Positions 2,059-58,031 of a DNA stretch of 64,000 nucleotides are shown in pieces. The translations under genes were made by a program, and so were the position numbers. The first letter of the stretch is position 1. Each line of letters opens with the position of its first letter. The notes under the pieces were generated by a model. The model worked only from the letters and a program-made list of their open reading frames with translations. It searched no databases and was not told the DNA's origin. Origin of the DNA: Muricea muricata (taxonomy: Eukaryota > Cnidaria > Anthozoa > Malacalcyonacea > Plexauridae); assembly GCA_963855995.1 (NCBI GenBank), contig OY979717.1, forward strand, positions 47,148,044-47,212,043, read 5' to 3'.

Positions 2059-2079
2059 CGAGATAGTCTAATTCTCGCG

Positions 2080-2232
2080 CCTTTTCTTCGCGCCTCGGGC
2101 CTTTTCTTCGCGCCTCGCGCCTTTTTTGGCGCCTTTTTCTCGCGCCTTTTTTTCATGCCTTTTTTCATGCTTTTTTTTCGTGCCTTTTTTCTGCTGTTTT
2201 TCGCGCGCCTTTTTTCTGGCCTCGCGTTCTTT
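2080..2232. repeat. CGCGCC-rich tandem array, left
   Basis: Imperfect tandem units of the type TCTTCGCGCCTCGCGCCTTTT with variable T-runs. CpG-rich in an AT-rich region. It is the inverted counterpart of the array at 4243-4402. Confidence 0.85.
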
Positions 2233-2384
2233 TATCTAAAAGTTCATTAAATTATTTACTACCACTTACTGACGTTCACTTTGGGCATATAAGATTAGCC
2301 CGTCAGTGAATTTTAATTCATATAAACCCGTGTTTAACTCAACCAACTATAGTTTGAGTTCAACTAATCAGAAGGTAGATAGGT

Positions 2385-3850
2385 AGGTAAAACTTTATTT
2401 TACTACGCTGACCATTCAGCAAGAGCTGATTTCCAAGAGGGGCGTAGTTTAAAAATCATATTACATACATATATTAAAAATATTAAGCAATTACAACATA
2501 CAGACAGTACGTTACTACATGGAATATTTGGAATTACTCATAAATAGAAATTTTGAACTCACATGAAATATGTAAATAGATTAAAAAATTTTAAGAAATT
2601 GGCCAGGTGCACGAATGCTGGTTTTAAAGGCAACAAGTGATTCTTTACTTCGTATATCATCTGAGAGGCTGTTCCACAGTTTTTCCCCTCTATACTAAAA
2701 CTCTTTTTTGGATAATCAGTCTTAGGTTGGGGCGAACAAAGTTTAGTGGAAGAACCTCTCAGATTGTAATGTCGAGAGGAGGGCATTTCATGAAAAATAT
2801 TGGATAATCGTTTGGGTGCTAGATCGTGGGTTATTTTATATATCTGGCTTGCAACAAACTGAGCCCTTCTTTCACTTGAGGTCTTCCAGTTGAGTTCAGC
2901 CAGAGCAAGTTCAGACTGTCCATGTTCGTTTATACGGCCCATGATTATTCTAGCAGCCCTATTTTGTAATTTCTGCAAGCGATTGCAAAGTGTAAAATTA
3001 ATAGTGTCCCAAACTTCACAACAATAATCGAAGTGCGGTAAAACTAGTGCATTGTAAGCACGTATTAACATATTATGATCAACATGAGGCTTTAGTTTCC
3101 TGACCGCCTCGATGCCGGATGAGATTTTTTTCGAAATATTTCAATGTGCTTATTCCAAGATAAATATTCATCAATATAGACCCCAAGTGCCTTTGTTCTT
3201 CCACCCTTTTGATTGGCATGTCACCAACATGCACTTTGGGAGCATGAAATAAGTTATTTATTTTATGCCTTGATCCGATTAATAAATACTCAGTTTTGAC
3301 AAGATTTAGTGATAATTTATTTGCTGCCATTGTTTGATATTTGCAAGGTCATGATTGATGGCCACCTCAACATCTAGAACTGATTCACCAGAGGCAGTTA
3401 ATGTAGTATCATCAGCAAACATTCTTGCGACGAAAACTCCAAACTACCAGGTAAATCGTTTATATAAATTAAGAATAGAAGTGGACCAAGAATCGAGCCT
3501 TCAGGAACACCACACGCAACTGTTTTTGAACAGGACAATACGCCATTTCCTGAGCACATTTAAGTTCTGTCTGTTAGGTAATTTCTTAAAAGATTCAACA
3601 CTGGTGATCCCATGCCATACCTTTCAAGTTTCTTTAAAAGAATATGATTTATATCAAAAACTTTTTGTAAGTCTAGAAATACTGCAATATTAATTTTACC
3701 ACGGTCCACATCAACTAAGCCACTCATTTATGCTATCTAGAAGGGTTGATGCTGTGGAGTGAAACTGTCTAAAACCAAATTGATGATCGGATAGCAAATT
3801 ATTTGAAACAAAATAATCATATAACTGTTCATAATCAGACTTTAATTAAT
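2385..3850 (-). pseudogene. 5'-truncated CR1-like LINE (RT C-terminus, 3' UTR)
   Basis: On the minus strand, reverse-transcriptase C-terminal sequence runs from about 3830 down to 2559. Recognisable blocks are [51 protein letters not shown] and [10 protein letters not shown]. Frameshifts and stops break it. The endonuclease and most of the RT are absent, so it is a dead 5'-truncated copy. It ends in a stem-loop (2402-2448) and a short (TACC)n-like tail, and lies wholly inside the repeat-ended element. Confidence 0.8.
2402..2448 (-). promoter_or_regulatory. LINE 3' stem-loop
   Basis: Read on the minus strand, ACTACGC (2448-2442) pairs with GCGTAGT (2408-2402), and inside it CAGC-TCTT-GCTG forms a small hairpin. 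Two other LINEs here have the same architecture with different but paired outer stems (18837-18880 and 31017-31108). Such 3' stem-loops are the RT recognition element in CR1/L2-clade LINEs; that role is inferred here. Confidence 0.7.
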
Positions 3851-4242
3851 CAAGGGTAACCCCCCTAATTTTGTACTTATCTATTTTATGTTATTTTCAG
3901 ACATTTGACTGATGACATATGACATTGGACAGTATTCATAAGTAATACACAGTATTCATGAGCCGATTTTTTGCTGGCGATTATTTTCGCGCGATGTGAC
4001 ATGTGTACGGTTCTACTCAAATTGAAATGAACTATTAATTAAGAATCTAATTTGTTCTAGTTGAGAGCCTATAAGATAGAAGATTTGCGCGACAAAAATT
4101 TGCCAGTGAAAAAACGGCTTTATTGCGGAGTTATCGTTCCAGTTAATGAATAATAGTAGAGTCACTTGTTTAGCAAGTTTCTTTCTCCCTATACATTAAA
4201 AGATGATAATGGTAATTTTTAAGAATAATTTAATGAACTTTT

Positions 4243-4402
4243 AGCGAAAAAAACGCGAGGCGGGGAATAAGGCGCGGGAAAAACGGCAGAAAAAAGGTAC
4301 GAAAAAAAAGCATGAAAAGTAAGGCGCGAAAAAAGGCGCGAAAAAAAGGCGTGAAAAAAAGGCGCGAGGCGCGAAGAAAAGGCGCGAGGCGCGAAGAAAA
4401 GG
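4243..4402. repeat. CGCGCC-rich tandem array, right
   Basis: Units of AAAAGGCGCGAGGCGCGAAG with variable A-runs, inverted relative to the left array. Overlapping minus-strand open frames rich in Phe, Arg and Ser here are products of the repeat, not genes. Confidence 0.85.
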
Positions 4403-4446
4403 AGGAGGTACATCTAAACTTGGTGAGGAGGTACATCTAAACTTGG
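4401..4446 (+). repeat. 23-bp tandem duplication
   Basis: AGGAGGTACATCTAAACTTGG occurs at 4403 and again at 4426. It lies in the first coding residues of the LTR retrotransposon and, not being a multiple of three, shifts its frame. It is at the edge of the repeat-ended element. Confidence 0.85.
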
Positions 4447-6638: not shown

Positions 6639-7922
6639 ATGGCTGAACAATCAAAAAGTGACTCAACCAAGGCCAAATCACCGTATGTATTCGTATGTGT
6701 TGTTTATCTTTGATTTACTGACGATAGTAACCAAAATTCACAAGGTTTCTTTTTCTCAAATGCTAATTTATGGTAAATACATGTAAGGTCAATGACCTTT
6801 ACCCTGTTCATTATTTGTTTAGCTAAAAACATGCTACAATATATCAGCTTCACCATGAGAAAAGCAGAGCATTATGCGGAGATAAATGTGCCAAGGTCTC
6901 AAAAGTATATTACCTATGGCTCAATTTATTTTAGTATGTATGACAATTGGGCCATTTCATTTGACCAATACCTAAGCCTGTAAATATTTTTACATATCTG
7001 CAATTTTACTGTCCTTATTTATTGGAAGTGTGGATATTAAATGGATGCCCCATGGTGAAAATATTATAAGAATGTACAAGGTTTTATACTTTTCTTAATT
7101 TCCCAGAGTGCAGAGATTACAAATGACTTCATTATGTTACTTTTACATAGGAATTGTTTTGTAATGAAGTGGACAACAGATCATGATATAGAATTTTGTA
7201 AAGAAGTCTTAATTTCCAAGCTGTTTGAAACAAAGAAGAAGTCCATAGAAAGGGGGCAGGTGTGGGAAACCATAGCTGCAAATCTCGAAAAATTGGAGTA
7301 CCCTTCCTTTCGTGTTGACCAACGTTCAGTAAGGGACAGATTGCGTAAATTACTTCTACAATTCCGAAAGAAGGAAAGGCAAGAAAAGAATGCAAGTGGA
7401 ATAGTGCCAGAGCAATCTGAGCTTGAATCCCTCTTAGAAGAAATAGACGATCTTGAAGAAGCATCAGATATCCTTGCTGCTGAGACACATGCAGAAGAAA
7501 AAAGGAAAGTGGAAACAGACAAAATGGCAGCTGAAGAAACAAGAAGAAGGGCGATGGAAACGTTATCAGAAACAAAGAAACGAAATGAAGGCGAAGATAA
7601 TGGTAGGAAACGGAAAGTCAGAAAGGGAGGAAATGCAGCTTTAGAGTTTTTAAAAGAAAAAGGAGAAAAAGAGCAGGTACTAAAAGAAGAAAGTAACAGG
7701 CTTGAAAGAGAGCGTATTGATATGGAAAGAGAACGGATGGAAAATGATAAAAAAAACAGTGAAACATTGATGAACCAGCAGAATCAGCTTTTGGCAACAA
7801 TGTTGGAAATGCAAAAGCAACAAAGCAATCAAATGCAGGCGAATCAAATGTTGCTCATGCAACAGCAGCAGCAGCAAGGACAGGCTTTGATGACTCTACT
7901 AGCTAAACTTGCAGGGAAGTGA
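6639..7922 (+). CDS. Harbinger Myb/SANT-like DNA-binding protein, two exons
   Basis: Exon 1 (6639-6682) encodes MAEQSKSDSTKAKS and ends in a GTATGT donor; exon 2 (7151-7922) begins after TTTTACATAG, and the junction codon CC|G (Pro) is in phase, giving 271 residues. Residues about 20-95 (MKWTTDHDIEFCKEVL, then RSVRDRLRKLLLQFRKKE) match a Myb/SANT-like fold. The rest is a long charged coiled coil with a basic cluster (GRKRKVRKGG) and a glutamine-rich C-terminus. In this superfamily the partner helps import the transposase and bind the transposon ends. The reading frame is intact. The start was chosen because the downstream long frame alone has no ATG before the domain. Confidence 0.8.
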
Positions 7923-9006: not shown

Positions 9007-10453
9007 CTATGAGAAGTAGTTCTCTAAAGTAAGAGGGTCCAATTGAAAAAAATTAGAGGTAAGGTTTTCCTGTAAACAGGTAAGTGCATTCCTGAAAAGA
9101 GCACTAACCATGTACATCTTTCCAACACTGCTTAATCCAATTTTTAAGTTCTTTTTAAAATCAATGAACTTAAAATAGTTACAAATGTCTCCAAAAATCC
9201 ATTCCACTGATACCCTGGCAGTGCTCATAGACTTGTTAAATGCAGCCATTTCAGGTGTTAGATTCTCACGTCTGTATGGTGCTTGTAGATGAACTCGCAA
9301 AGGATATGCGGGGTCCCCATATAAGCACATAGGTTGACCATCCACAAAAGCATGCTGTTCTAAGTCGTTTAAAAGACCAGAGTCCAACAACATTGCAGCA
9401 TCGTGCCTTCTTCCTTCTACAGCATAAAGATCAAAACTGTATGCATAATTAAATTGGCTTCTTTTCGAAAAGGTATCCAGAGCTGAGGTGCTCTTATCTT
9501 GGCATTTGACTCTTCACTAATGCACTAATAGATAAAGGAGAGTTTTCACATTATATATGATTCTTGTTATTCAGGAAATCCCGAGCTGCCATTCTAGGAG
9601 TATCCAAGTTTTGCATTTGAAGAGGTGAATGAGGAGGAGTCTCGTGTTGATTTTCGATTTAAAAAGAATGAAATACTTGCACCAACTTGAGTGTTAAACT
9701 AACCAGAGAAGTTTACATAATAATCATAATAATTTAAAATATATGTAAAAAGTGCATACCGATTGGGCCAAACATATTTGCAATTATTCCATTAGGTAGG
9801 ACAACGGATTGAAATTTAAGAGCATGCACCCTTTTGTGCCCATTGTAAACAATTCTCTGCATCTGACCAGGACGACAAATCCGCCTTACTGTCCCATCAA
9901 CAAAACCGAAACAGTTTTCTAATGCAGCACCTTTCTGGTGTATTGCATCTGCATAGAGTCGTAAAGATTGAGGGTTCAAAAGTGCATGGTTCCATGTCGT
10001 TAATTTTTCACCATGATTTTGAAAGATGAAATCGACAACAGTGTTGGTGATCATGCTCAGCTCAGGCACGGGTCGGCCAAACTGAGGTACCAAATCGCTG
10101 AACCTACAAGGGTAGGCAAATCGACGAAGAACTATTCATAGCGCCTCGATACTTTCACAAACCGTTCCCTGGTCACATGTAAACTTCTCTGGTAAGTTTA
10201 ACACCCGAGCTAGCGCAAGTATTTCATTCTTTTTAAATCGAAAGTCAACACAAGACTCTTCGTCATTCACCTCTTCAAAAGCAAAACTTGGGTACTCGTA
10301 GAATGGCAGCTCGGGATTTCCCGAATAACAAGAGTCATATAATGCGAGAAACTCTTCGTCATCTATCAGTGAAGAGTCATACGCGACGACAAGAGCATCT
10401 CTGGCTTTTCGAAAAGAAGCCATATTTTTCATGCTGTACGCGTTGTCCTTCAT
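9007..10453 (-). pseudogene. Harbinger DDE transposase, one internal stop
   Basis: Exon 1 (10453 to about 9762) starts MKDNAYSMKNMASFRKARDA and includes ENCFGFVDGTVRRICRP with the first catalytic Asp. A G|GTATGC donor near 9762 and a TGTAG acceptor near 9421 join in phase to EGRRHDAAMLLDSG. Exon 2 (to 9007) has YGDPAYPL (second Asp) and STARVSVEWIFGD with the catalytic Glu region, as in DDE_Tnp_4 (D-D-E) transposases. A TGA at 10138-10136 interrupts an otherwise open frame between IEAL and IVLRRFAYPC. No frameshift is seen, so a single nonsense change appears to have killed it. The intron contains an inverted copy of part of exon 1. Confidence 0.8.
9559..9718 (+). repeat. Inverted copy of transposase exon 1 within its intron
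   Basis: These 160 bp match the reverse complement of 10177-10336 over the full length with about 15 differences (about 91% identity, counted by eye). The source segment codes for the transposase region GNPELPFYEYPSFAFEE and onward. The copy has stops when translated. A transposase pre-mRNA would carry both arms in opposite sense about 460 nt apart. Confidence 0.85.
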
Positions 10454-11676: not shown

Positions 11677-13347
11677 AGTCGAAACCATAGAAATAATAGA
11701 TATAGAATGCGTACTCCTATCTTTTCTCCGTGAAACATTTGTCGCCACAAAATGGCGGATTTATAAGGGCATTTGACTAGTTCCAGACTCCTGAAAGAGA
11801 GAATTTCGCGCGGTCGCAAGGAGTGCGATTTGTTTTTGTCAGCCAGAGTTTACAAAAAAGACAAATTCGAGACTTTAAATGGAAAAAAAGGTTTAGAAAA
11901 CGTTTGAATAAAGAAAAACAGATTTTATGGGACTTTTTACGTAAAAGGTGACACAAAAAAACGGGAGAGTGCGATAATGCAAATGATAAGAGCAGAAAGT
12001 ACAAGAAATTGTTTGCGGAGTTTTCAAGGTTGCTGTGACAACACTAAAAAAATGATAAAAATTCACAGGTATGTCTTGTCGTTTGAAAATACACATAATC
12101 ATGTAATGTTCAACACTATTCTAAAAGCTCAAATGGTACCTTTGTTGTTTTAGTCGGAGTTCCTCACTGACCTTAGTTTTGAAAGGCAGTTTTTGACAAT
12201 TTTAAGCAATCGATATTTACAAACAATCACCTCGTTCGTGCACTGTAAAATATTGTAGTTTACATAACTTCTGTTATCTTAATGTCTTCTGATTTAGCTT
12301 CAAAGGTCAATGAAAAAAGCGACAATTTGGTCACTTTTTAAACGAAATGTTTAGTCATATGCATGCATGCAAAGCATGCAAAGTAAATCATGTTTACGCA
12401 AAACTATAACGGTCTTTGTATTATAATACACAACTATTATTTACCATCAGTGTGTCACTGTCTTTATCTCATTGTTTTAAGAGAACTGTAATAAAGCTGT
12501 AAATTTGTCAAAAGACAATTTTCTATCAGGAACTGCTTTGTTTTACAAACTCTGACGTTTAACTCCTGGTCAAATCCAATATGGCGGATTTATAAGGGCA
12601 AATTATTTTAAATTTTAAGCACAGGCTAGGTTACCAAGCACGCATTCTATATCTATTATTTCTATGGTCGAAACAGAGGAGCGTAGTGCAAAACTCGAAG
12701 ATATCATTGAGTAATAGATTCTCCGCTCTTACCGTCGAGAGAAATAACTTAAGCGACGAGGAGGACGAACAGCCTGACAGCAAAAAGAAAAATAATGCAC
12801 CTACACAGAAAAGCAAACTCGTTAATGAAGCTAAAAAAAGCTAGAAAGCTTCAACCGCTACTGTTATTGTTGGCGACTCAATGATCAAGCATCTTGATTC
12901 GAAAAGGCTAAAGCGATCTATGAAGAACGGGAAACAGAGCGTTTTTGTTGAAACCTATAGAGGTTCCAACTTGGAAGCCATGAGTCACCATATAAAACCA
13001 TGCCTTACAAGAAAGCCAGACCAAATAATACTGCATGTGGCAAAGAGCCAAACGAGATTGTGAATGGTGTCTTAGAAATTGATAAAATCATAAAGAAAGA
13101 AAGCCCAAAATCAACTGTAGCTGTATCGGGACTGATACACAGAGCCGACAAACCTGAATTTACGAAGAAAGTTGAACAGGTAAATAAATTGTTAGTCAAG
13201 GCTTGTCAACAACATGACATGGATTTTATAGATCATAAGAATATTCAACATAAGCACTTAAACGCCTACGGACTGCATCTAAATATATCTGGTACGGGCG
13301 AAATGGCTAAGAATTTTATCACGTATCTTAATTCTAAATGCGATTGA
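11670..13347 (+). pseudogene. LINE ORFb, SGNH-esterase protein (interrupted)
   Basis: ATG at 11670 lies in ATGGTAG, overlapping the ORFa stop. After removing the hAT-type insert and one TSD copy, the frame continues through SNRFSALTVERNNLSDEE into the esterase domain: TVIVGDSMIKHL carries the block I GDS catalytic serine, and AYGLHLNISGTG near the C-terminus is the block V region with the catalytic His. A TAG near 12840 and a frameshift near 13035 break it. SGNH esterase domains occur in ORF1 of CR1-clade LINEs in invertebrates. The ORF ends with TGA at 13345-13347. Confidence 0.7.
11686..12666. mobile_element. hAT-type non-autonomous element, 8-bp TSD
   Basis: The 981-bp insert begins CATAGAAATAATAGATATAG and ends with its exact inverse; TIRs are about 27 bp. 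The perfect 8-bp duplication GTCGAAAC flanks it (11678-11685, 12667-12674), which is the hAT signature length. Internally ATGGCGGATTTATAAGGGCA is directly repeated near each end. It has no coding capacity and interrupts the LINE ORFb just after its start. Confidence 0.9.
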
Positions 13348-13475
13348 TGTTTAAATGTGTCCGTCCCAGAGCATTGCTTAAAATCTGATAACAAAACCGG
13401 TCAATTATTCACTGATAATAAAGCCGGTCAATTATTTTCTGATGATACAGTACTGCCTAGAAGTAACTTAACACA

Positions 13476-13637
13476 TGCGGTTCGGTCGCGGTTCGTGCGG
13501 TTTGCGGCTGCGGTTCGTGCGGTTCGCGGTTACGGTTCGTGCGGCTCGCGGCTGCGGTTCGTGCGGTTCGCGGTTACGGTTCGTGCGGTTAGCGGTCGCG
13601 GTTCGTGCGGTTCGCGGTTGAGGTTCATGCGGTTCCT
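13476..13637. repeat. GCGGTTCG-type subterminal array, left
   Basis: Tandem imperfect units such as GCGGTTCGTGCGGTTCGCG, strongly CpG-rich. Open frames rich in Val, Arg and Ala here follow from the repeat. Confidence 0.85.
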
Positions 13638-15632
13638 TAGCTGACTGTGCTAAAATCATTGCGGCGTATTCCGACATTCTCCGAGCTTTACATTTTATTA
13701 TGCGACGATCGTTCGGTGTTGAACGGCGTTGAATAGTCAAACATACTATTTACGAAATTATAAAACAAATCGCAAAAATACTTGACAATACTATTAATAG
13801 TAAATTGCGATGTTTAATGCGTAGCAATTTTGTATTTGAAAAGCTGAACTATGTAGGTTTATTTAAAAGAAAGATACTTTATAAACCTTTTATAAAACTT
13901 TTTTGCCCACTAAAGTAGGAACATGCCCATTTGTATACACAGATTATTGAGAAAATACAGTGATTTTGTTTAAGAGCTCACAATTTATCCGCATAAATAA
14001 ATTAGTTTCTGTTTACATGTAGCGTGATTATGATAATTGACAGAGTTAACAATCAGAATCCATCGCAAATATAAGGGGTTAAAAATCACTCATTTACGCA
14101 TTGCCTTTGGCTTTTGCGATCACTGAAGCCTTGGCCAACGCTAATTTGGTGTCTAAACAATAACACCAAAAACTAATACACTATGAATTCGTTCGGCGCA
14201 AAACGTCATACTGGGTAGGCAATAACAACAACACGCTTCCACGCATTCCCTGTAGACAACAGCTATTTCATAAAAAAATGAACACGCCAGTATCACAGAA
14301 ACTATACCTGTACTTCCAAAACTATGTCAGGCGTTAATTCTACTTAAAATCCAAAAATGTTGACGTTAGTCAAAAAGTATTTCGCACCAAACAACTGCTA
14401 GTTTGAATACGCATTACAGTATACTATTACAATAATTATCACAATGTTTGAATCAAACAAGCCGAGATACTGTATACTGATCGTGCTTTGAGTTCGCGTG
14501 GATAAAATATTCGTAACAACATAAGCTTAAATGTACTCACTCTCATGCGTCCAATATGTCCTACCCATTCCAAAGTCCTCCATATAACACAGTAAGCCAG
14601 TGTATTTTAAGTGTTTTTCGCCTACGCTGTGATTTTGTTTAAGAGCTCTGCGGTTAATTAGCATGTTTCCGACTATGAATAAATTAGCTCGGTATACATA
14701 AGTGCATCACTATACATACAACACATTAGAAAATGATATAAAAATTTAAAGGAGGAAATATGTTGCTAAACCGTTGTAAATTCCGACATACCTCACATTA
14801 TATTTAGTATTTGGTCATTAATTCAACATAATCATAAAAGTAAGTGACATATATGATGATAGTCAAAACGGCTTGCCCCAGATCAAAACGGCGAAGTTTC
14901 CGATAATGAAAACGGCCCCAACAATGTTAATCAGGATGCATAGCTGAAATTGTCATTGTTCTCAGCGAGTTTCCAGAATCCGAACAGAAAATAGATCTAT
15001 TGTCCAAGCGCGGGTTTTGTTGGCTAATCCTATTGTGACTGCACAGTTTGCGTTATATACTTTGAAACAAACAGCATAAATAGTTTGCAACATAAGTTTG
15101 ACTTAGGGCCGTTTCGACTGATACGTATATATATAGTACAAGAAGAGAATTTAGAAGATATAATATACTGAAAATATAAAGCATTAACAAATACTATAAG
15201 AGTTAAATAGAAACCTGAAAAGGGGAAAGAATTTTGTGACACACTATAGTGAGTGTTTGGTCATTTGCATTACAGTGACACATTCCACACTATGCAAAAC
15301 TTCGCTCATTAGACACCTTAATTGATATCGATGCGATAACACTTTGTTATGTTAACACGAAATTACACAGTGGATTAAAAAATTGATCGGAAAATGCTCC
15401 AAAGAGAAAATGCTCCGTAGAGAGAGAAACGACTCGACTTCGAGCATATAGCGATGGCTTTCCCATTATTGAATTAAAATATAAACCAACTTAAACGAAG
15501 AACAGCTTCTCAGACACGCACAGAAGAACAGAATACAAGGTATGGGTGTCAGTTTAGTGACCGAACCGAAGCCAAAGTCGGGCTATTATCGTATTCTTCC
15601 GTAAATTGAGATCAATCTCAGTAAAAGAGGGC

Positions 15633-15787
15633 AGCACGCGGTCGACACGAGGGCGGCACGAGGGCGAACCGCGGTTGGCCCGTAAGCGAGCCGCGGTTCG
15701 CCCGCGAGCCGCCCTCGTGTCGACCGCGTCGAGCACGCGGGCGAACCGCGGTTAAGCCGCGGTTGGCACGCGGTTGGCCGCGGTTTT
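15633..15787. repeat. GAACCGCGGTT-type subterminal array, right
   Basis: CpG-rich units with AACCGCGGTT and CACGAGGGCG, partly palindromic. It is broadly the inverted partner of the left array but with more varied units. Confidence 0.8.
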
Positions 15788-18700
15788 CTGTTAAGTTACT
15801 TCTAGGCAGTACTGTACAAGTGATCAATCCGATGAATTGGCTAGGGAAAGAATTAATATGTCAAACATAACTAAGAAACTATTATATAATAGTAATAAGG
15901 GAATCAAAATAATGCACCTTAATATTAGGAGTTTGATAAAGAATATAGATCAGTTTAGAGTATATGCTTCTAATAATCAATATGACATTATGTGCATTAA
16001 TGAAACCTGGCTAGATGATAAAGTCAGTGACCATGAAGTGGGTATAGATGGCTATGATCTGGTGCGTAAAGACAGGAAACGCACTGGAGGTGGGGTAGCC
16101 GTATATATTAGAAACTCTATAAATTATAAAATTAGGCAAGATGTAATGCCTGATAATTTGGAGTTAATCACGGTAGAAATCATTAAACCTAAAGCTAAAC
16201 CGTTTCTTCTTAATGCATGGTACAGACCCCCAGATATGCCCATTGAGGCATTTAACGATTATGAACAATGTTTACAAAAAATGGATTATGAAAATAAGGA
16301 AATCATATGCATTGGTGATTTCAATTGTGGTTATCTCCAACCTGTTAAAAAGGAAACTAAAAGGTTAAAATATTTGGCTAAAATGTTTCAACTTGAACAA
16401 CTAATTGAAGAACCTACTCGAATTACTAGAAATACACAGTCTCAAATTGACTTGGTATTTAGCAACCGATCGGAGATAATAGTTAAATCAGGAGTTAAAC
16501 ACATTGGAATTAGCGATCATAGCTTAATCTATATCCACAGGAAAATATCTGTATCACATAAGCAACCAAAGATTATAAATACACGACAGTATAAATATTA
16601 TAATACCGAAGCTTTTAAACTAGACCTGTTTAAAATCCTTCAAACAAGAACGCATGAATGTGATCCAAATATACTTTGGGAAGACTGGAAAGAAAAATTT
16701 TTGATGGTAGCAGATATGCATGCACCTCCGATCATCAGGAGGGTGTGCAGTGAGCATGTGCCCTGGCTTACCTCAGAAATTAAAACAAAAATTTACAACA
16801 GAGATTTTCTTAAAAAAAAGGCAGTAAAAACTGGCTCTACTTATTTTCACAATTCATATAAAAAGGCTAGAAATGAACTGAATAAGTTGATTAAGGAGAC
16901 AAAAGTCAAATACTATACAAATGCAATCAATCAAAGCAACAAGGATCCAAAATCCATGTGGAAAACTATAAACCAATTAACTAATAAGAGATCGAAAACT
17001 ACAAATCAATGAATTGATAATTAACGATGAATCAGTGAAGGAACCAGAACTAATAGCAGACACTATGAATTCGTATTTTTGTGACATTGGACCTTTTCTT
17101 GCAAACAATCTCTCAAATAGCGATAATTGTTTTGAAGCATATATTAATGCTACAAATACCACATTTGAAATTCAAAAGATTAGTGACTTGGATGTTAAAA
17201 GTGAAATCTTGAAAATTAAAACTTCTAAAGCAACTAGACCTGACCGAATTTGGGCCTAAGCTTTTAAAAGATAGCGTGGAAGTTATCACCGAATCACTTA
17301 CAAACATATTTAACAAGTCTATTGAATTTGGTATCTTTCCTGATGATTTCAAGACTGCATGCATATCTCCTATACATAAGGGGGATAGCAAATTGGAATG
17401 TAGCAACTATAGACCAATATCTGTTATATCTGTTGTAGCAAAAGTTTTTGAAAAGTTTGTTTCCAGCCAATTCATTGGATATTTAGAAACTAACCACTTG
17501 CTGTCAGATAGTCAGTCTGGCTTTAGGAAAAAGAGTTCAACAACTACGTCCATGTAAAAAATACGAACCAATGGTATATAAATATGGATAAAGGGCTTCT
17601 AAATGGAATTATTTTTCTTGATTTAAAAAAAGCCTTTGACTGTGTAAATCATGATATTCTGATTAAAAAACTATCATACTTTGGCTGTAGGGGAACCACC
17701 TTAAACTGGTTCAAATCTTACTTAACAAATAGAAAACAGATGTGTAAAATAAATCAAAAGACGTCAAAATGTCGTACAATTTGATGCGGGGTACCACAAG
17801 GCTCAAATCTGGGCCCAATATTGTTTCTTATTTATGTAAATGATTTACGCAGCTGTTTAAAAAACACTACAGCCAGTATGTTTGCAGATGGCACAAATCT
17901 AACGGCAAGTGGTGATACAATAACAAATATTGAAGTAAAGTTAAACAAAGATCTGGAAAATATACACCAATGGTTGCTGGCCAATAAATTAACGCTCAAC
18001 ATGGATAAAACTGAGTACATGATTGCTGGTTCTCGACAAAGAATTGATAAAATTGAAAATGATCCAGATATTAGACTAGGTAATGATAATATAAAAAGGG
18101 TTAAAGAAACCAAAACTTTAGGGATCATTATCGATGACCAACTCAAATGGAATACCCATATAAATAATGTTGTCGCCAAGGTATCAAGGGCGATAGGATT
18201 AATTCGGCGGATGAAAATGTTTGTACCACAGGCAACATTAATTTCTGTTTATAATGCAATAGTGCAACCTCATTTTGACTATTGTAGCCTTGTCTGGGAT
18301 ATAGGTAATGCTTATTCGCTTGAAAAACTCCAGAAAATGCAGAACAGGGCTGCAAGAGTCATTACTGGAAAATCATATGAGGTGAGGTCTCAGTCTATTT
18401 TACAGGAATTAGGCTGGCAACCATTAGTAGAACGATGGAAACAAAATAAAGCGGTATTTATGTACAAAGTTAAAAATGGTAATTGCTTGACAAATATTAC
18501 AAACATGTTTAACGTTAAAAATAATCTGCAGTATAATTTGCGCAACAATGAATGTGATTTTACTGCTGAAAAACCTAAAACTAATTTTTTAAAAAAGTAT
18601 TGGCTATTCAGGTGTAAAAACCTGGAACGAATTACCTTCAGAACTTAAACATAATGGAATATCATTACAAAGATTTAAAGCTGTGCTCCGAGACATACCA

Positions 18701-26459: not shown

Positions 26460-26460
26460 G

Positions 26461-36996: not shown

Positions 36997-38084
36997 TTAG
37001 TATTTTGTTCTGAGTCCTTTACATTTAATTACAGCTTCAATGCGCTTAGGCATACTTAATAATAGATTGTTAATGACACTAACTGGTATTTCAGTGATCA
37101 TTTTATGTACTCGTGCCTTAAAGTCTGTCCAAGTTTTGTGTTCTATGCCCTCAACGATCGCTTGCCTGTCCAGTTTTTTTTTCACAATACGAAATAAATT
37201 CGCGATTGGATTGAGGTTTGGCGAACGGGAAGGAATCTCAAATAATGTCGCCCCAGAATCCTTGATTACTTTCCTAGCCACATTGCTTCTCTGTGAAGGA
37301 TCATTATCCATTACAAACCACTTTTGTTGAAATCTAGGACGGAAAAGCTCAATTAAATCACTCCTAATGAAATCACTAAAATACTTTCCATTCATGCGCT
37401 CATAATCCTTAGCAAGAACGACACCTCTGTTAAATGAGATGGCTACAACAAAATGTAATCTTTTCCCTTCTGGTAAATTTTTCGAACCTTTACTTGTCAG
37501 CCGCAGCCCTTCCGATCTTTTGCGCCAAATCTTTCCTTTAGGGACGGAAGCATTATAGTTTGGTTTTCGCTTAAATATGAAGGAAACTCCGTCCAAACAA
37601 AACGAAATGCTTGAATGGATTAAGTCCAATTTTGTTTTTAATATTTTGCTACATTTTTGGCGAACCTATAGCGCTTGGCACAGTCGCAATCACTTATGGG
37701 GACTCCTTTTTTTCTTGAATTGAAAATTTAAAGCCTGCCTTCAAAATCTCTCTGTAAAACGTCGCATAAGATGCAGATGAACCTTGAAGTCCACTGAACC
37801 GAATAAGCTCTTTCACCGGGAAATTCGCATTGTACTTTTGCAATAGAACAATACTGCGCCTTAAACGCCTAACATCACGAGCGGATAGTATTTTCGGTCG
37901 TCTCATATCTTATTTCTTGTCTTGCTTCCCACGAGGCTGCAGATTCGATTCTTTCAAATATCGTGCGACACTTGATTTAAAAATCTTATCTCTCAATGCA
38001 ATTTCTCGAACAGATTTTTTTTTCCATATGTAAGGATTTCACAAGCGCTCGAGTTTCGTCGGATATTCTCCTTAAAAAAACCAT
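36997..38084 (-). pseudogene. Tc1/mariner-type transposase, dead
   Basis: From ATG at 38084: paired-type HTH (RISDETRALVKSLHMEKK), then RRPKILSARDVRRLRRSIVL and ELIRFSGLQGSSASYATFYR, then the DDE domain: ISFCLDGVSFIFKRKPN (first Asp), FVMDNDPSQRSNVARK (second Asp) and SPNLNPIANLFRIVKK. The usual NPIEN Glu is Ala here, so the third catalytic acid is lost. Frameshifts lie near 38015, 37910 and 37690-37630. C-terminal KGLRTKY precedes the stop at 36997. Confidence 0.85.
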
Positions 38085-41382: not shown

Positions 41383-42580
41383 TTACTCTAAGCTACTTGT
41401 TAGAGTGGCTGATACCCCATATAGAGTGACAGGAGGAATTTTTATATATCGTTCGTAGCAATCAGATATCCAACGTCCTAAGGTTTTGATTAGCCACGAT
41501 GGCAATTTAGCGGCAGCTGCGGTTGTTGCTGCCCCAATTCGATAGCTATGACCAGCATAATGCGCTGCATTTAAACCAGATTTTTAAAGCAGTGACCGTG
41601 TCTCAGATGTCAGAAGTTGCTTTGTCAAAGGCTTACCCAAGGAAAGAACGAATAATGGGCCATTATCAACTTTTCTTGTTGAAAGATACCGTTTCATAGC
41701 TAAGACCGGACATAGCGGAGAGTTACATGCTCCTACTGTTATAGATTGCCCAATACGAAAAGGATCGGTTTTGGATTCTTTAATCCGGCCGGATTGTCAC
41801 AGTAGCGAAGCCAGCCCGGCAATTTGGTCATGCTATGCAAATCTAAATCATTATCATTATTCATGCATTTCTTTAGAAATTCATTTCTTATACAGTCAAA
41901 AACACAGAACTATTTGCATTTGCATGACCAAATGTCGGGCTGGCTTCGCTACTGGATTGTCATAGGCGCTGGATTCACGCTTTGTGTTAGTAAAACGTCC
42001 GTTAGTGTCCGATGTACTTCCTGATTAAACTTTGAGTTGCAGGTTAACTCTCTCAAAGAAAGCCAAAGTCATGGCGGCCCAAATCATAATTGAATTATAG
42101 TTTTCAGTGGACGGAATTGAAAGTAGCAGATGAAATAATTTCATATGGTGAATCGTAATAGGTAGACGGATCTGAATTTCGCCTCCTTGGGATCTCTTTA
42201 TACCACACTAGACCAGCTGAAGGCGAGACATTTTTTGAAAATTTAAGCGAAAACCTTGACGAATATGAAAATGACGGACGGCGGCTAAATAGATTTTTAT
42301 TGAAGAACGTTTGATGTTTTATGCCAAATAAGCAACGAATTCAGTTAGTAAAGCTTCAGAGGCAGGAAGGCATTGTTGCATTGTGCAAACTTTGGATAAA
42401 TGTATAAGCTCCAGAAAACGTTTTTCACCCGATGAGTAGATCTGCTTGGTAGATGATGCCATTGACAAGTTTATGTACCTTTCTATGTCCTTATTTAAAT
42501 GGGCATGCTAGGTCCCCTGAAACCACTTAGATTTAAGATTCCCTCTATAGCCTTTTTATCTGGATGCATCAGTGTGTAGC
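41383..42580 (-). pseudogene. Tyrosine recombinase (DIRS-like), interrupted
   Basis: The C-terminal end reads HYAGHSYRIGAATTAAAA and LGRWISDCYERYIKIPP: the H-x2-R box and the nucleophilic Tyr are both present. Upstream, CNSPLCPVLAMKRYLSTR fits the linker of these recombinases. A hAT-type MITE splits it at 41800-41954, and stop codons interrupt the frame (one just before the H-x2-R box). Upstream sequence to about 42580 is poorly readable. Confidence 0.65.
41800..41954. mobile_element. hAT-type MITE, 8-bp TSD
   Basis: 155 bp; TIRs CAGTAGCGAAGCCAGCCCG and inverse, extended by TTTGGTCATGC. The perfect TSD GATTGTCA lies at 41792-41799 and 41955-41962. The CAG start and 8-bp TSD fit hAT. Confidence 0.92.
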
Positions 42581-44800: not shown

Positions 44801-46379
44801 ACAGAACGGGTCAGAACCCAAATAATTATGTATGTATTATGAACTTATGAAGCTAAATCAGTAATTGAAATCAGCCAGACAGCAATTCTAATTTCTCTTT
44901 AGTGGCTTATTAAACAAGAGGAGCTGACTCAGAGAAGCACAGAAGTGCCAAGCTTATCCAACTAAAGTGATGACAACTGGATTCTAACTTCAGCAAATAC
45001 ATAATTATTTATACATGCAGGTTCCGGTTTTTTGGGGACACCATGCTTAATTTACTGGACAGGTCTAAGTCCACACGATTTTACTAGTATGAATTATATG
45101 CACCAAAAGTGGTAAATGTGCAGGCATGGCTAAGGTAATAGTTTGTTTGCACAGATGGCTTCCAATCTTGACAACTTCAATCAGTACAATTGATTTTCTT
45201 GACTTGTTTGCATCTAGCCATTTTTTATCTATGATATAGAGGAAAAAATAAATACATGGTATGTGTTAAGACGAAATGCAGTAAGCACAATTGCCCTTCT
45301 ATTCTAACATCAAACAATTATGTTTGTCAAATGGGGAGTGCTGCACCCGTTATAGCTGTACAATTATTATGTAAATGCGTTTACAAAATTCATTCAATAT
45401 CTTCGGGTAGGAATCCAGAGAAGAATTCGTGTCAAACACATCTCCTAGCATCTCATTGAGTGCAGAAATACAAGATTCGACATCGTCACTTGCTCCACTA
45501 CATGGATGTTCAGGCATCTTTTTCGGAGTTGGTACTCTTCTCGTCTCAGTCGAGACTGGTTTATAGGCTAAACAGGAGTGCTACTACAGTTTCTTATAAT
45601 TAATGTTAAAATAATTTTCTGGTTCTTTAACGCCAGAAATGTTTTTGCTCAAATAGTTTCAAATTGTCACTTTGGATCGCATTGCAACCCCGAACGCAGA
45701 GAGCATTGTGCATTAGGAGACACACATTGGGCACAAGCACTCCAAAAGTCCTGATTTTTTAATCAAGGCCATGTTTCATAACTTTCATTGATTCTTGAGC
45801 AAGCCAAACACAATGCGATATATTCCGCAAGACATTTTAATTAATTGAAGAACTGACCAACTATGCTTTGGTGGTTGTGTATCAAGCTCTCTCGGTTTAT
45901 CACCTGTAGAGAGTAACAATTGCTTTTTATGATGTGCTGTTGTCTCAGACGCTCCATGTCGTCGTCTTACTTTTGATTAAGGCTTTCCTGGCGTATCACC
46001 TTGTGGGAGCCATGCACGTTTTCTACTACCATTCGCATTTTCCATTTCAGTATTGCACTTACAATAACTATGCAATTAGTGTCATTTAATTTATAATTGT
46101 ATAAATTTTCCATGAAAATAGCATTAACAAAACAAGGGAGAAATTGAGAGCACCTAATTGACCCACTGTGGGCAAAAAGTAAAAATTTAAATAAACGAAA
46201 TGTATTCATGAATATCCCCCATCCAATTGAAATAACATCACACAACCTTAAAAATTTGATATACTTCATAATGTACTAATGTTCTTCACAACATTTAAAA
46301 AGGGGAGAGGGTGATCAAGTCTGTGTTAAGGCTTTGTCGAAGATTGCAGCTCAACACTCTCACAATTATAATTCTTAGT
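44801..46379. other. No gene recognised
   Basis: On the minus strand near 45570-45380 a readable stretch (VSTETRRVPTPKKMPEHPCS, then ESCISALNEMLGDVF) could be a remnant of the DIRS-like gag or an unrelated exon; I cannot place it. The remainder shows nothing. Confidence 0.3.
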
Positions 46380-46958: not shown

Positions 46959-47801
46959 TCAGAGACCTAGATTTAATGACACTGCCAATTGATGTTTTAA
47001 ATCTGAACGGCAGTACAATTCTTTACTTTTGTCAGATTTCCACCTTCCGTGCTCTTTGATGGCTTGGGGTGACACATCCCGATTCGCTGCCGCCGTTGCA
47101 CCACCAATGCGTAAGGAATGTAATCCAAAAGAAGATGAGGGCAATCCGATTTCCTTGTGAAGTATAACCTCTCGAGTGCGTGAATAGGAGAGCTGTGAGC
47201 CGGTTCGAATAGTATAAGAATTACAGAGACGGTGGAAAACCAATTTTCCAAAGACAAAAGTATTGGAAGAGGTGTCTGCCCGAGCCATGGAGGCGTATCG
47301 AAGGAGCATGTTGTACGGACATGTAGGAGTTGCTGTCTTAGCAATCAAGATGGTAGAGCCTACGTGTAACTGATCTGTCTTGCTGCGGGGGAGGAAAACC
47401 GACAAATGATACTCGTGAAATGTGATGTGACACCATTTGAGGTTGCAAATTTCGTTAAAACGGAGAAAGCCAGCAAAACCTATTAAACATAAAGTGACAT
47501 CACGAATGTCGGAAAGAGAGGCAGATGGTCCTGCAAAACGCGACACGAGAGCAAGTAGATGCTCTGGAAGAATAGGGGACTTCTGCTTGGGAACACGAGC
47601 CTTAGCGATGTCTAGACGCTTACAACCTTTGAGAACAGCTTTAACAAAACCACTGACACAGGGGCTCATGACCCCACATGCGTTGTAAAAAAAATTTATG
47701 GCGTAAAATGCCGAATTACTAGTACTAAATGTAAATCCAGACTGTAATAAATTCACTAAGTATAAAGCAACGTAACAATCCTGTGCATGAAAATCATTCA
47801 C
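46959..47801 (-). CDS. Tyrosine recombinase of the Ngaro-like element
   Basis: A 280-residue open frame. N-terminal core-binding part (CYVALYLVNLLQSGFTFSTS) and catalytic part with GFAGFLRFNEICNLKW (Arg I), SKTDQLHVGST, HSLRIGGATAAAN (H-x2-R) and HGRWKSDKSKELYCRSD (Tyr nucleophile near the end). All expected catalytic residues are visible. The enzyme inserts the circular DNA copy without a target duplication. The true start may be further upstream, since the N-terminus looks a little short. Confidence 0.85.
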   Translation of the reverse strand: MNDFHAQDCYVALYLVNLLQSGFTFSTSNSAFYAINFFYNACGVMSPCVSGFVKAVLKGCKRLDIAKARVPKQKSPILPEHLLALVSRFAGPSASLSDIRDVTLCLIGFAGFLRFNEICNLKWCHITFHEYHLSVFLPRSKTDQLHVGSTILIAKTATPTCPYNMLLRYASMARADTSSNTFVFGKLVFHRLCNSYTIRTGSQLSYSRTREVILHKEIGLPSSSFGLHSLRIGGATAAANRDVSPQAIKEHGRWKSDKSKELYCRSDLKHQLAVSLNLGL

Positions 47802-48599
47802 TTCAGGAAATTGGGCACACTATAACTTCCATTTGTTGAACTGAGACACATATAACTTGGAAGTGGATGCGGCCGTAGAACTTCCAAGAGCATTAGTCAC
47901 ACCAGGCACGAGATGTACGAGTTCCGGACTTTGTATTTGAGGTAGTAGATCTGTAAAGAACATAATAGTCGCAAATTACTCCCGAATTTCCACTAAATAT
48001 TTAATAATTGGAGCCTAAATGAATTGGCGCATATAAGCCTTTGCAAATAACCCATGAGTCGGTGCTAATAGACGTGTACGGCGCCAGAAGGCGAATTCCA
48101 ACATTCCAGTGCCATAAGGCAAATTCTAACAGCCCATAAGGGAACCAATAAGAACACACATAACAGCCCATGAGGGCAAATCATATTAAATTACAAAAAG
48201 CATACAAACAGGTCAAATTCCAAGCTAAATGGTTGTGAGGATAAGGGTATAAAGCTAATGGAAACAAACCAAATAAATGTCTGGGACACTATGTTGAACC
48301 AATAGTTCATTAGAATACCGCCATAAGGCACATTAACCAAATACATGCCATATTGCAGCATAAACTGTGCTCGGCTATACAACTGGTAGTCATAAATGGG
48401 CTATAAAGCCATTACATATCGGAATGCGAACCAATAGGCAATAGTTCGTTGGAGTACCGCCATAAGGCGCATTAACCAAATACATGCCATATTGCAATAT
48501 AAATTGTGCTCGGCTGTACAACTGGTAATTATAAATGGGCTATAAAGCCATTGCATATCGGAATGCGTCTATGTCAATAAACACTCCATCAAGACGATT
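47802..48599 (-). other. Inter-ORF region of the Ngaro-like element
   Basis: No protein-coding signal apart from a possible upstream extension of the recombinase to about 47900. It includes the 137-bp tandem duplication. Confidence 0.5.
48294..48567. repeat. Tandem duplication, about 137-bp unit
   Basis: Two copies (48294-48428, 48429-48567) share ACCGCCATAAGGC, CATTAACCAAATACATGCCA and ATGGGCTATAAAGCCATT, about 90% identical. Shorter fragments with CATAAGG and CCCATAAGGG recur at 48090-48180. Confidence 0.85.
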
Positions 48600-50696
48600 T
48601 TAATGCTTCCGTGAAGCATCCAAGCAAATGGCTAAAACAGAGGATTTAAAACATCCGCCGCAGAATACTGTAGTCACTCCGCGTGGGGGCCTCCCGAAAA
48701 TATTGTGAGGATCACTAAATTCCCAAACTTGTTTAACAAATGTTCTCAGCCCTGAACTGGGAAACAAAATGGGCCAAAAAGATGCGGACTTCCACATAGG
48801 TACTATGAGAACTCCTCGGGTTTTGCAATATTCGAGGTGATAAACTGTGCGAATCACTAAATAAACAGGGGCACTAACCAGCAGTTCTCATTGGACCAAT
48901 CAAAGCTGAAAGCATCAACGCCGGAAGTACCCGGACACCAAAATTTCGAATAAAATTTTCTGCATTTAGCCGTGCCCGAGGAAGCAAAACAGTCAAGCGT
49001 AAATGGGCCATACATGGAATTTAAATGATTATAAAATTCAGACGTAATACTCCAGTCGTCATGATCGACGATGCGACTAATATTGTCTGCATACACATTT
49101 AGGGACCTAGGGATCTGCACCTGGAGAATGTTGTTGTTCTGTAAGCAGAAGCAAAAAATATCTAACGCGATTTGATGTAAGCGTAGTGAGGTCGAACCTT
49201 TCCCGCAAATAATTGCAGCATTAAGGTTGTCAGTAAAAAATTGTACAACGCTGCTCTGTAAATGTCTTTTGAATGCTCGAAGGCCATAAAGGATTCCTAG
49301 GAGCTCACGACTGTTGCTATCTAATTCTGTCTCTCGGGAAGAAAAGGCAGTAAAATATAAGTCGAACTCAGTCCGGTCTATAAAGAATACATGACCACCA
49401 CATGCGTAAGCACTAACATCCGAATAAAAAATCGCGGTAGGGGCATGGTGTCGAAGCAAATTACGGTTATTAAGAGAGACAATGTTGCTTGACCAAAACT
49501 TTACCTCAGTGAGGCATTGCTGATAATACTGAAAATTGCTAAGATCTATTACAAAATCCCACTGGTCCGACAAAGCCACTGCTGATTGTAAAAATCGTGA
49601 CATTATTAGGGTTACATTACCAATGACTGGCGACATGGATATAACTTTGCCGACGATAGAAGCGATAAAACGAGGGGAGACAAAAGGCAAATTATCACTA
49701 AATTTCTGAAGAGCAGTCGTAAAATTCGTTATCCTTGAGTGAGCTACAGCAATATAACCCTCAGTGAAATTCCATATCAACCCTAACCACTCGAGTATTT
49801 GTACGGGATCCCATACAGATTTTTCGACATTGGGGACAATTCCTGCGCTAATTAAGTCTTGGCGAACGGATGCGGGGACAGAGCAAGCGGCATCGTAGGT
49901 GTGCTCGCACCCAGCCCCGTCATCTAAAAAGAGAACGATACGAAAACAGCTTCGTGAACAAATAGGGAGCTGATGATAGCCCAAAAGGGAGAACAGTAAA
50001 ACAGAAATAACGCATTTTTGTAGAATTAAGGGGCCACTGAAAACCCAAAAACTGTTGGTGGTCAGGCCAGATATCCACATGATGATAACCTGACTTCATG
50101 TTGAACTTAAATAGGAAACCGTCCGGTACAAAATAGTTGGCAAATACTTTCCAGTCGTCCATGCGGAACTTAGGTTTAGGGATGTGCTTATTAACATGGC
50201 GTAAATCTAAAATAAGTCTGGGTGTTCCTTTTGCGTTAAATGAAACGGATAAAGGATTAATTACCGTCGGTGGCTGGGGACACTCAACAATCAATCCCAG
50301 TTTAAGTAAATCACTAATGGCTTGTGACACAAACACATTGTTGTCCATGGCTGAGTGGTTATTACGAAACTGTGCAGAGGCAGGTAACGAATCAAAAGGA
50401 ATCACATAGCCGTTTGTAATAATATTAATTACCCAATCAGGGGCACAAATATTTTCCCAAAATTTTACGTGGGCTCTTAACCGCCCTTTGACAATAGGGA
50501 CTGATTTACCACACTCATATTCGTATAAATTATTTGCATAAAATTGAACTAATTCACTATCAGATACACCTTGTGAAAAATACTTATCTTTAAGACAGTG
50601 TGTGAACTCATCATCCGCCAAAGGAGAGCGCACCGATGATTTATAACTCTGCAAATCCGAACCAGCAGCATCCCCGCCATTAAAACTAGAAACCAC
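48600..50696 (-). pseudogene. Ngaro RT-RNase H with two frameshifts
   Basis: The N-part (50696-49920) has GRLRAHVKFWENICAPDWV, SLPASAQFRNNHSAMD, GTPRLILDLRHVNKHIPKPK and TVLPFGLSSAPYLFTKL. About a dozen residues are missing and the frame shifts near 49940-49920, just before RIVLFLDDGAG with the LDD box. RNase H has IFYSDVSAYACGG and SSRETELDSNSRELLGI. The distal GPFTLDCFASSGTAKCRKFY and PGTSGVDAFSFDW segment is usual after RNase H in DIRS-type elements. A second frameshift at 48857 separates the last 85 residues (IRTVYHLEYCKTRGVLIV). Confidence 0.8.
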
Positions 50697-50801
50697 ATCA
50701 GTAGCTAGGCACTGTAAAAAAGAATCCCTATCTGGATGTGTTGGTGCTGTACGATCCCGATTGTGGGTGGGGGAAATAGGTGTTGCCGTTGTTGTTTCTG
50801 G

Positions 50802-55418: not shown

Positions 55419-55753
55419 TGGCGGGCCAAACATGTTAGGGTATTGCTCCAATTACGGTTCTGAAGTGAGCTAGCCGTAAAAGTTGTAGATATAGTCGGAA
55501 GTATAGAAATAAAAGTTTAGAACATTTGATCAATATGTGTTATCATCACTTATCATGTTCAGTTTAAATAGTTTTGTATTTAAAGACTTTTGGCAATAAA
55601 TTGTTTTAATGATTTATTTGAATAAAAGCATGAAAAAATAGGCCGATTGGCCGTTTATACATGGGAAATAGATTATCTATTTTGTTGAAAAGCTTTTTCC
55701 AAATTGTGCAAAATATAAATTTGCAAAGTTAGTTATTAAGCTCAATAACAAGC

Positions 55754-55812
55754 AGGGCCGTAGCTAGAACGTTAGTTTGGGGGGGGGGGGTATTCATATT
55801 TCATATATGCTT
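55754..55812. repeat. G-run repeat end
   Basis: CAGGGCCGTAGCTAGAAC precedes 11 G and TATTCATATTTC...TTGTTCTGTCC. A diverged counterpart of the G-run plus TTCTGCCC portion lies at 34460-34510, at the tail of the helicase-like gene. Confidence 0.5.
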
Positions 55813-55892
55813 GTTCTGTCCGAAGAGCTTATTTGCAAATCAAATTGAAATTATTGAACAATTTGAATTTGATTTACACAACCAGAAACGCC

Positions 55893-56760
55893 ACAGACTT
55901 GCTGCAAGTTGTGGACTTTACCGGCTTGCTGCAAGTTGTCATCAAGTTGCAGCAAGCCTGTTGACTTCATCAAGTTGCAGCAAGTCTGTGAGGATCAGAC
56001 TTGCTGCAACTTGATATTTGCAGACTTGCTGCAAGTTGTTACAACAACTTGCAGCAAGCTTGTGGATATCAAGTCTTGACAAGTCTGTCGTAGCAACTTG
56101 CATCAGGCTTGATGCGCGTTCAACAGACTTGCTGCAAGTTGATAGTAATTTCAAACTTGCTGCTACACACGTAAAAATCTCACAACTTGTAACAAGTCTG
56201 CAGACAAGCCGTCAACGAGACGTGTTCGCACTGCTTGTACCAAGTTTGTCAACAAGTTGCTCCAAACTTGTTGACAACTTGTAACAAGCTTGACGAAAAT
56301 ATCAGACTTGTTACAAGGTTGTTCTAACAACTCTGATACAATCCTTTTGTAGCAAGTTTGTTACAAGATTGACAACACAAGGCTGTAACAATATTGTTAT
56401 ATCATGCTGTATCAGTCTTGTTGGAACAATCTTGTAACAGGTCTGATAGTCCCATCAAGCTTGTTACAATTTGTCAACAGCTTGTTCCAAACTTGTTCCA
56501 ACAAATTCGGAACAAGCAGTGCGAATGCATCTTGTCAACAACTTGTGAACAGACTTGTTACAACTTGTTTGCAGGTCTGTAGCAACTTGTGCGTTTTTAC
56601 GTGTGTAGTTGATATTTTCAAATTTGCTGCAATTTGATATCACAGACTTGCTGCAAGACTGAAACCACTGATGAAAGCATCAGTGCTGATACAAGGGAAT
56701 CTTGCTGCAAATTGAATAATATATAAGTTGCTGCAAATTTGCAGTGAAAATCAGACTTGA
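55893..56760. repeat. Palindromic ACTTGCTGCAAGTTG array, left
   Basis: Dozens of near-palindromic units spaced irregularly by about 20-35 bp, changing to ACTTGTTACAAGTTG types inside the nested element. Open frames here (e.g. LAASCGLYRLAASC) are repeat artefacts. Confidence 0.85.
56164..56607. mobile_element. Nested related element with ACTTGTTACAAG array
   Basis: 444 bp, ends TACACACGTAAAAA and inverse, then CACAACTTG as in the outer element. Its whole body is made of CTTGTTACAAG / CTTGTTCCAA motifs. It appears to have inserted in, or arisen from, the outer element's array. Confidence 0.65.
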
Positions 56761-57721
56761 TGCGATTTAATATTTTAATGCAGCCTTTCTGCAAGCTATT
56801 GAAAAAACTTGCTTGTGAATAACAAGTCTTGTCAAAGCTAGCCTGTATTTATATATAAGAGCTCACAGACCTAACAGTCGTCAGCGTAAAATAATTGAAA
56901 TCTATCCTCGAACACTGGTTGGAAAATGTTAAAAATACGAAAAACTATTCTCTAACTTAAAATAAAACGGCACTAGAATTAAATTTTCGCTGCAGCTTGT
57001 GACTTTATTTATTTTTGTTATCAATGACAAATTGTCACGAATAGTCGATACAGCATTTGATTGGCTTTTAAAATTCAAGAACAATCTAACAACCAATCAA
57101 ATCAAGATCAGACCGTATTCGTCATTTTTTGACAAACAACAAGCGACAGCAAGAAAGATATTTAAAAAAAAAACAACAGAAGATGTCAAGCCTTTCAAAG
57201 GTTGAATAGAGATTGAAGCGAAAAAATACAGGTACAGTTAAAGTATAGTTCTTTACTTAGTGTATAGATGGGAGTTTAGACTAAAAATGACATTTTAATC
57301 ATGTTTCTTACCATTTTCATGGGCGACAAGACATTTCGTGTTTCGGATATTTATAAAGACATTCAACAGTATCCCAGCGAAAACGGCAAAGAAAAGTCAA
57401 GCTTGCATGTGGTACGACTGCACCATACATAAGGTAGTTGTCATCTCAACGTGAGAAGAAGACTGTGCAACAGATGACAATGTTTTAGCTAGCCTGCTAA
57501 TAACAAAATGGTTCTTAACGGTTTTTAATGTTAATGTTTAACTATATAGATCGTAGTTTTTATGCTAATGGCGTAATGCTATTTTTACATAATGATTTTA
57601 AAATGTTAACGTCATAAATGACAAATGTATACGAGTATATACTGTAAGACGGATAAAATAAAGCAGTTCATTTATTTCCTGTCTTTTTTATGGCTTTGTC
57701 AATATGATATGCAAGCCTGAT

Positions 57722-58018
57722 TTCGACAACTTGCAGCAAGGTCTGCAGTTCGCAACTTGCAGCAAGTCTGTCGTTCGCAACTTGCAGCAAGTCTGCCGTT
57801 CGCAATTTGCAGCAAGTCTGCAGTTCGCAAGTTGCAGCAAGCCTGCAGTTCGCAAGTTGCAGCAAGCCTGCAGATCGCAACTTGCAGCAAGCCTGTTGAC
57901 AACTTGCAGCAGACTTGTTGTCATCAAGCCGGAGCAAGCGATGCGAACGCATCCTGATATCGGCTTGATGATCGCAACTTGCAGCAAGTCAGCAGCAGAC
58001 TTGCTGCAAGTTGCGCGT
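57722..58018. repeat. Palindromic ACTTGCAGCAAGT array, right
   Basis: About nine units GTTCGCAACTTGCAGCAAG with a regular period near 30 bp, more homogeneous than the left array. Confidence 0.88.
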
Positions 58019-58031
58019 TTCTGGCTGTGTA

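Follow-up and report, generated by a model that had tools for sequence, protein, structure and literature searches.

Arrays of short repeats near the ends of DNA transposons are known from several animals, and we compare our results with three published accounts. In Galileo, a member of the P superfamily, repeats within the terminal inverted repeats (TIRs) bind the THAP domain of the transposase, and its authors suggest that multiple sites supply specificity (PMC3688188). Among Mutator-like elements (MULEs) of mosquitoes, a subterminal-repeat architecture is found in 10 of 12 long-TIR families; Muta1 and other MULEs of Aedes aegypti combine 8–9 bp target duplications with TIRs >100 bp, composed of a terminal motif and short subterminal tandem repeats, and they show variable repeat numbers in non-autonomous copies as well as captured fragments (PMC5225508). 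Tm1, a Mutator/Foldback family of root-knot nematodes, has 9-bp duplications, asymmetric terminal motifs, a variable number of ~14-bp repeats per TIR, and both MITE-like (miniature inverted-repeat transposable element) and transposase-bearing members (PMC3169594). Here, we analysed a 64-kb stretch of the Muricea muricata genome (C2:47148044–47212043, hereafter the window) together with searches of the genome (453,007,491 bases, 74 contigs). The window contains members of three separate, unrelated TIR DNA-transposon families with copies elsewhere in the genome, Elements 1, 2 and 3 (E1, E2 and E3), each with repeat arrays at its ends. By analogy with the systems above, we consider it probable, at roughly 70%, that these arrays are reiterated subterminal transposase sites in three non-autonomous families moved in trans. 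The architecture itself has already been described in transposons of other animals, and the three families are new instances of it.

The three window copies measure 2.2–2.4 kb and show no transposase-like open reading frame (ORF) among the listed ORFs, both as stated in a preliminary description of this DNA. Each element was resampled 300 times under a first-order Markov model, and against this background we counted (i) 13 unit matches in E1 (resampled mean 0.94, maximum 4), (ii) 23 in E2 (mean 1.35, maximum 6) and (iii) 15 in E3 (mean 0.03, maximum 1). The end arrays of all three elements strongly exceed chance, and their presence in unrelated families is borne out in every copy with ends read. 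The single design ascribed to the three elements holds at the level of layout and fails in detail: E1 carries matching arrays in long TIRs, E2 two different GC-rich arrays and E3 palindromes. With three such families in one genome, the size of the end arrays can be compared with copy number and with the age of insertions.

E1 most closely resembles the mosquito and nematode MULEs, and its window copy comprises the following features:

2060..4402, plus strand: Element 1, non-autonomous and of MULE type, without its terminal motif on the right (genome copies, 9-bp duplications)
2060..2256, plus strand: left TIR, containing a CGCGCC-unit array (end alignment, comparison with copies)
4224..4402, minus strand: right TIR with array, the terminal GAGATAATCTAAT being absent here (end alignment, comparison with copies)
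2559..3140, minus strand: reverse-transcriptase-like ORF fragment, captured or inserted (protein identity to window ORFs)

The left TIR opens with GAGATAGTCTAAT, and the element starts with GAGATAGTCTAATTC. A start at 2070, as first proposed, is ruled out by the copies, which place the true end 10 bp earlier, at 2060. On the right, the tip is missing: the match to other copies stops at ~4402, where a 23-bp tandem duplication (4402–4446) adjoins the break. The two ends align over ~180 bp including the arrays, to which the left terminal motif is added in the window copy, so that the TIRs exceed the 100 bp characteristic of MULEs and are not short, as had been thought. The interior fragment shows 39% protein identity to the window ORF at 30476–30955 and 38% to that at 18166–18621, both reverse-transcriptase-like, and has no Pfam match at E 0.001. 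From this 38–39% similarity and from known motifs, we take it to be reverse-transcriptase-like; it is common to E1 copies.

We searched the genome with the left 331 bases of E1 (2070–2400, array included), a query that tilts the sample toward copies retaining the left array, and scored the best 40 of 142 candidates, which gave at least 45 genome matches. From 39 places outside the window, 32 copies were fetched, and both ends were located in 17 of them. The 9-bp target duplication is exact in 10 of these 17, matches at 8 of 9 bases in three and at 7 of 9 in two, and is lacking in two; short copies and the long form described below thereby show a duplication within the 8–10 bp (usually 9) typical of MULEs. 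The distance between opposed ends is 4.9 kb in L039 and 2.2–2.8 kb in the other 16 of these loci. Taking the window together with the first 20 loci, we find the left motif GAGATAGTCTAAT at 17 of 18 motif-showing left ends and the right motif GAGATAATCTAAT at 7 of 10 right ends, while five ends are motif-less. Allowing ≤1 mismatch, the terminal motif occurs 58 times forward and 58 times reverse genome-wide (100 of these places were listed), compared with 0 for a reversed-pattern control. E1 is most probably a shortened, non-autonomous Mutator-like (MULE-type) transposon.

The position and composition of the arrays bear on two alternative explanations. Among 51 E1-type arrays in 42 loci (227,652 bases, 32 of the 42 picked for holding E1), 50 lie beside an E1 end anchor and the remaining one, in L031, lies 17 bases inside an E1 end. 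Arrays apart from TIRs, which would point to incidental satellites that joined the elements, are therefore absent for E1 in a sample chosen for E1. In favour of such an origin, E3-like words are very common genome-wide (5175 first-look candidates, counted irrespective of TIR pairing). We regard a satellite origin as scarcely credible. A second explanation holds that short tracts close to the ends, GC-rich or palindromic, are expanded passively by replication slippage and unequal exchange and have no function. Unit number in E1 does vary freely, from 8 to 22 on the left and 6 to 21 on the right; all 16 copies compared have unequal numbers at their two ends, and the two numbers are uncorrelated (Spearman 0.15, p 0.57, 16 copies), in keeping with passive expansion. 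Yet arrays are present at both ends of the copies read, and the CGCGCC core is exact in 434 of 526 units (a class allowing transitions only, counted without a spacer control) while the spacing shifts, being mostly 7 or 12–13 bases. Passive expansion seems to us improbable on balance, though it deserves serious attention.

A longer form of E1 offers a candidate for the source of its transposase. A 7.6-kb element at C1:16061276–16068845 shares these ends, is flanked left and right by AGCAAAAAG, a perfect 9-bp duplication, and has arrays of 13 and 22 units as well as an internal 657-aa stop-to-stop frame. This frame matches the SWIM zinc finger PF04434 (23.4 bits, cut-off 19.6), a domain common near the C-terminal end of MULE transposases. 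The long form is assigned to the MULEs because of its ends, duplication length and SWIM match, the catalytic domain being unmatched in Pfam, and the 657-aa frame is likely the putative transposase source for E1. Further opposed E1 ends lie ~5.5–13.6 kb apart, with one pair at 0.66 kb, as paired by position only among the listed places; the 9-bp duplication was checked in the one long copy described above. The match to the window element breaks at window position 3489 in nine loci, and an opposite end was found 9–12 kb away in five of them (L009, L010, L014, L015 and L020). These five are at least partly long form with the same TIRs, and a reading of such copies as shared subtelomeric segments only was rejected. 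Eight loci (L009, L010, L014, L015, L016, L020, L022 and L023) show ~98% identity past window 3489, several of them near contig ends, and in most of the eight the internal repeats are offset by ~127 bp. L088, a single isolated match, was rejected as a MULE locus carrying E1 arrays. The short and long forms share their ends, a pair that makes the role of reiterated subterminal repeats testable.

Compared with its closest relatives in layout, E1 differs from Muta1 in its motifs, in its CGCGCC unit with T-rich spacers and in the size of the long form, 7.6 kb versus 3.2 kb (PMC5225508). It differs from Tm1 in sequence, and the FLYWCH and MULE domains given for Tm1 are unmatched in the E1 long-form pieces scanned (PMC3169594). 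Galileo belongs to another superfamily and has far longer TIRs than E1, E2 or E3, so that it is relevant for mechanism only (PMC3688188).

E2 retains both ends in the window and differs from E1 in the design of its arrays:

13448..15814, plus strand: Element 2, non-autonomous, TIR CAGTACTGCCTAGAAGTAACTTAACA, TA target duplication (genome copies, TA flanks)
13476..13635, plus strand: left array, 22-bp period, 7.4 copies (tandem-repeat listing, copies)
15627..15785, plus strand: right GC-rich array of other layout, with an internal 21-bp inverted repeat seen by eye (repeats, copies)

The best 40 of 105 candidates were scored, giving at least 41 distinct places, of which 23 span the full length (1–2367) at 93–100% identity, the window included. 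TA stands on both sides in all 11 copies read (window included), as in Tc1/mariner-type duplications, and the ends CAGTACTGCC and GGCAGTACTG are present in all 11, two right ends having one change. E2 is a young TA-target family. We presume a Tc1/mariner-type mover from the TA duplication and the CAG ends, and TA-target MITEs of the IS630-Tc1-mariner group share the TA duplication and a short TIR starting with CAG. The left array is full length in 9 of the 11 copies and shortened in two, as is the right array. This near identity across 11 copies also speaks against passive expansion, though the family is young. The 26-bp TIR, inside TA flanks, is short as described, and the best end-to-end alignment covers 28 bases, that is, TA and TIR only. 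GCGGTT occurs 14 times forward and 0 times reverse in the left array, and 6 times forward and twice reverse in the right one. The proposed inverted orientation of arrays between ends fits E1 and is incorrect for E2, whose arrays are not mirror images; in E3 the unit is palindromic and orientation is nearly meaningless. Within the window, no further copy of the E2 TIR occurs at ≤3 mismatches, and a DDE_3 transposase ORF at 36997–37665 is unsupported as its partner, with no E2 TIR nearby. On contig C1, which makes up 27% of the genome, lie 30 of the 41 distinct E2 places listed; for E1, which shows no such bias, the number is 3 of the first 40 listed rows, and candidate ranking may bias both counts.

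The third stretch, taken at first for one element, is two, E3 and a nested element, and the outer boundaries have been refined to 55877–58029:

55877..58029, plus strand: Element 3, TIR CACARCCAGAAACGC, CAC...GTG ends, 2-bp target duplication (genome copies)
55892..56163, plus strand: left array of CTTGCWGCAAG palindromes (palindrome matches, resampling)
57711..58014, plus strand: right array with a period of 25 bp (7.4 copies as far as 57895), followed by more palindromes up to its end (repeats, resampling)
56166..56605, plus strand: nested MITE-like element, TIR CACACGTAAAAA, TA flanks, almost entirely one hairpin (copies, DNA fold)

We scored the best 40 of the 5175 E3 candidates and read nine copies, window included. 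The left TIR is present in all nine and both outer ends in six; for L098–L100, the fetched sequence either stopped short of the right end or showed none. All six two-ended copies have CAC...GTG at both ends and a 2-bp duplication (TA in five, TT in one), within the 2–3 bp of CACTA/EnSpm-type elements, and they contain 10–17 strict palindromes. We take E3 and the nested element to resemble non-autonomous CACTA/EnSpm-type (CMC) elements, which have CAC...GTG ends, a 2-bp duplication and subterminal repeats; the strong preference for TA sets E3 apart from these and also fits TA-target families.

The nested element at 56166–56605 is present in L097 and absent at that site in 7 of 8 other E3 copies. 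Its exact empty site was not found: the best match, in L100, reads CTGCAAGTT, and the flanks predict CTGCTAGTT. L095 holds a second nested element of 386 bp (872–1257 in E3 orientation), whose TIR is CACAGCCAAAAACGC and whose repeats are related. Among the 8 other E3 copies, five show the empty site GAATAGTCGATAC exactly and three differ from it by one base, and a TA duplication therefore accompanied this insertion. In both their ends and their repeats, E3 and the two nested elements are akin and can be grouped together. In a scan of viral contigs, the nested-element TIR had 0 matches, and the E3 palindrome had 19 single matches.

These palindromes raise the possibility that the arrays act through structure, with hairpins extruded from palindromic units promoting excision or template switching. 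In E3 the units are perfectly palindromic, and the computed fold of the nested element is a single long hairpin (56164–56607, −122.1 kcal/mol against a mean of −54.0 and a standard deviation of 4.9 in 100 shuffles, z −13.95). However, a whole-element hairpin is expected from long TIRs alone, and the E1 units and E2 left units are non-palindromic. A structural role of the arrays is, in our estimate, very unlikely.

We favour reiterated transposase sites as the explanation of arrays that lie just inside both ends, accompany the TIRs and differ in unit number even though the core of most units is conserved. The proposal that they multiply such sites, made in the preliminary description, is plausible by analogy with the binding reported for Galileo (PMC3688188). 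Each of the three families would be mobilised in trans by a transposase encoded elsewhere, several subunits of which might bind side by side on the array units; multiplicity would make a motif that is short and common sufficiently specific, and side-by-side binding could help to keep both ends together. We infer that the 657-aa frame may be the mover of E1, and that E2 and E3 would have partners as yet unseen.

Several observations weigh against this reading. The free variation of E1 unit number and its independence between ends have been given above, and two-ended copies L021 and L033 have zero duplication. No Pfam family, the MULE catalytic domain included, matches at E 0.1 in the rest of the 657-aa frame or in a 219-aa frame upstream. 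The ten best loci of the MULE domain PF10551, examined together with 1.5 kb of flank in each direction, hold no E1 terminal motif, and none of 103 listed PF10551 places falls inside the listed long E1 pairs (best 150 of 269 candidates). The genome therefore holds other MULEs besides E1, and the catalytic part of the long form is either too divergent for the PF10551 profile or absent. For E2, no transposase partner was found with the TIR searched within the 64-kb window, and the arrays of its two ends differ in layout, which would be odd if both ends were bound alike. Among E3 copies, L096 is flanked by TT/TT instead of TA, and the sequence fetched for L098, L099 and L100 contains only 2, 4 and 6 strict palindromes, respectively; some copies therefore have weaker arrays or were shortened by fetch limits. 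No E3 partner turned up, and no search aimed at one was made.

A bolder extension is that at least three transposase lineages of this genome independently came to depend on multiplied subterminal sites, and that the number of sites at the ends, rather than the level of transposase alone, decides which non-autonomous copies prevail. We hold this to be rather doubtful; if true, the course of that competition could be read from the unit-number variation of E1.

The suggestion that the locus is special and reflects convergent selection is unsupported: each family has copies elsewhere, and no tandem array was found in four other computed inverted-repeat candidates of the window (11685–12667, 20152–20488, 41800–41954 and 58932–59246). 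Three array-bearing families within 64 kb are by themselves no evidence of selection at the locus. Copies without arrays, the observation that would make the arrays incidental, were sought, and none was seen among E1, E2 and E3 copies with ends read, some arrays being weak; partial E2 places without one end (for example, query 349–2367 and 165–1956) are also listed and were left unread. Precedents for E1 came up in our keyword searches of the literature; for the families of E2 and E3 we met with none, a result that does not show their absence from print.

The window holds further traces of mobile elements. The DDE_3 ORF at 36997–37665 is flanked by weak likenesses of the E3 TIR, one with two mismatches at 35752–35766, which begins with AAG and not CAC, and one with three at 45865–45879. 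A DDE_Tnp_4 ORF of PIF/Harbinger type lies at 9007–9513, with a possible DNA-binding ORF without Pfam match at 7059–7922. A phage-integrase-type recombinase ORF stands beside reverse-transcriptase-like ORFs (46959–47819 and 48857–50801), which we take to be perhaps a DIRS-type element. The 155-bp inverted-repeat candidate at 41800–41954 has an 8-bp duplication, GATTGTCA, and ends CAGTAGCG, and by its features is presumably hAT-like.

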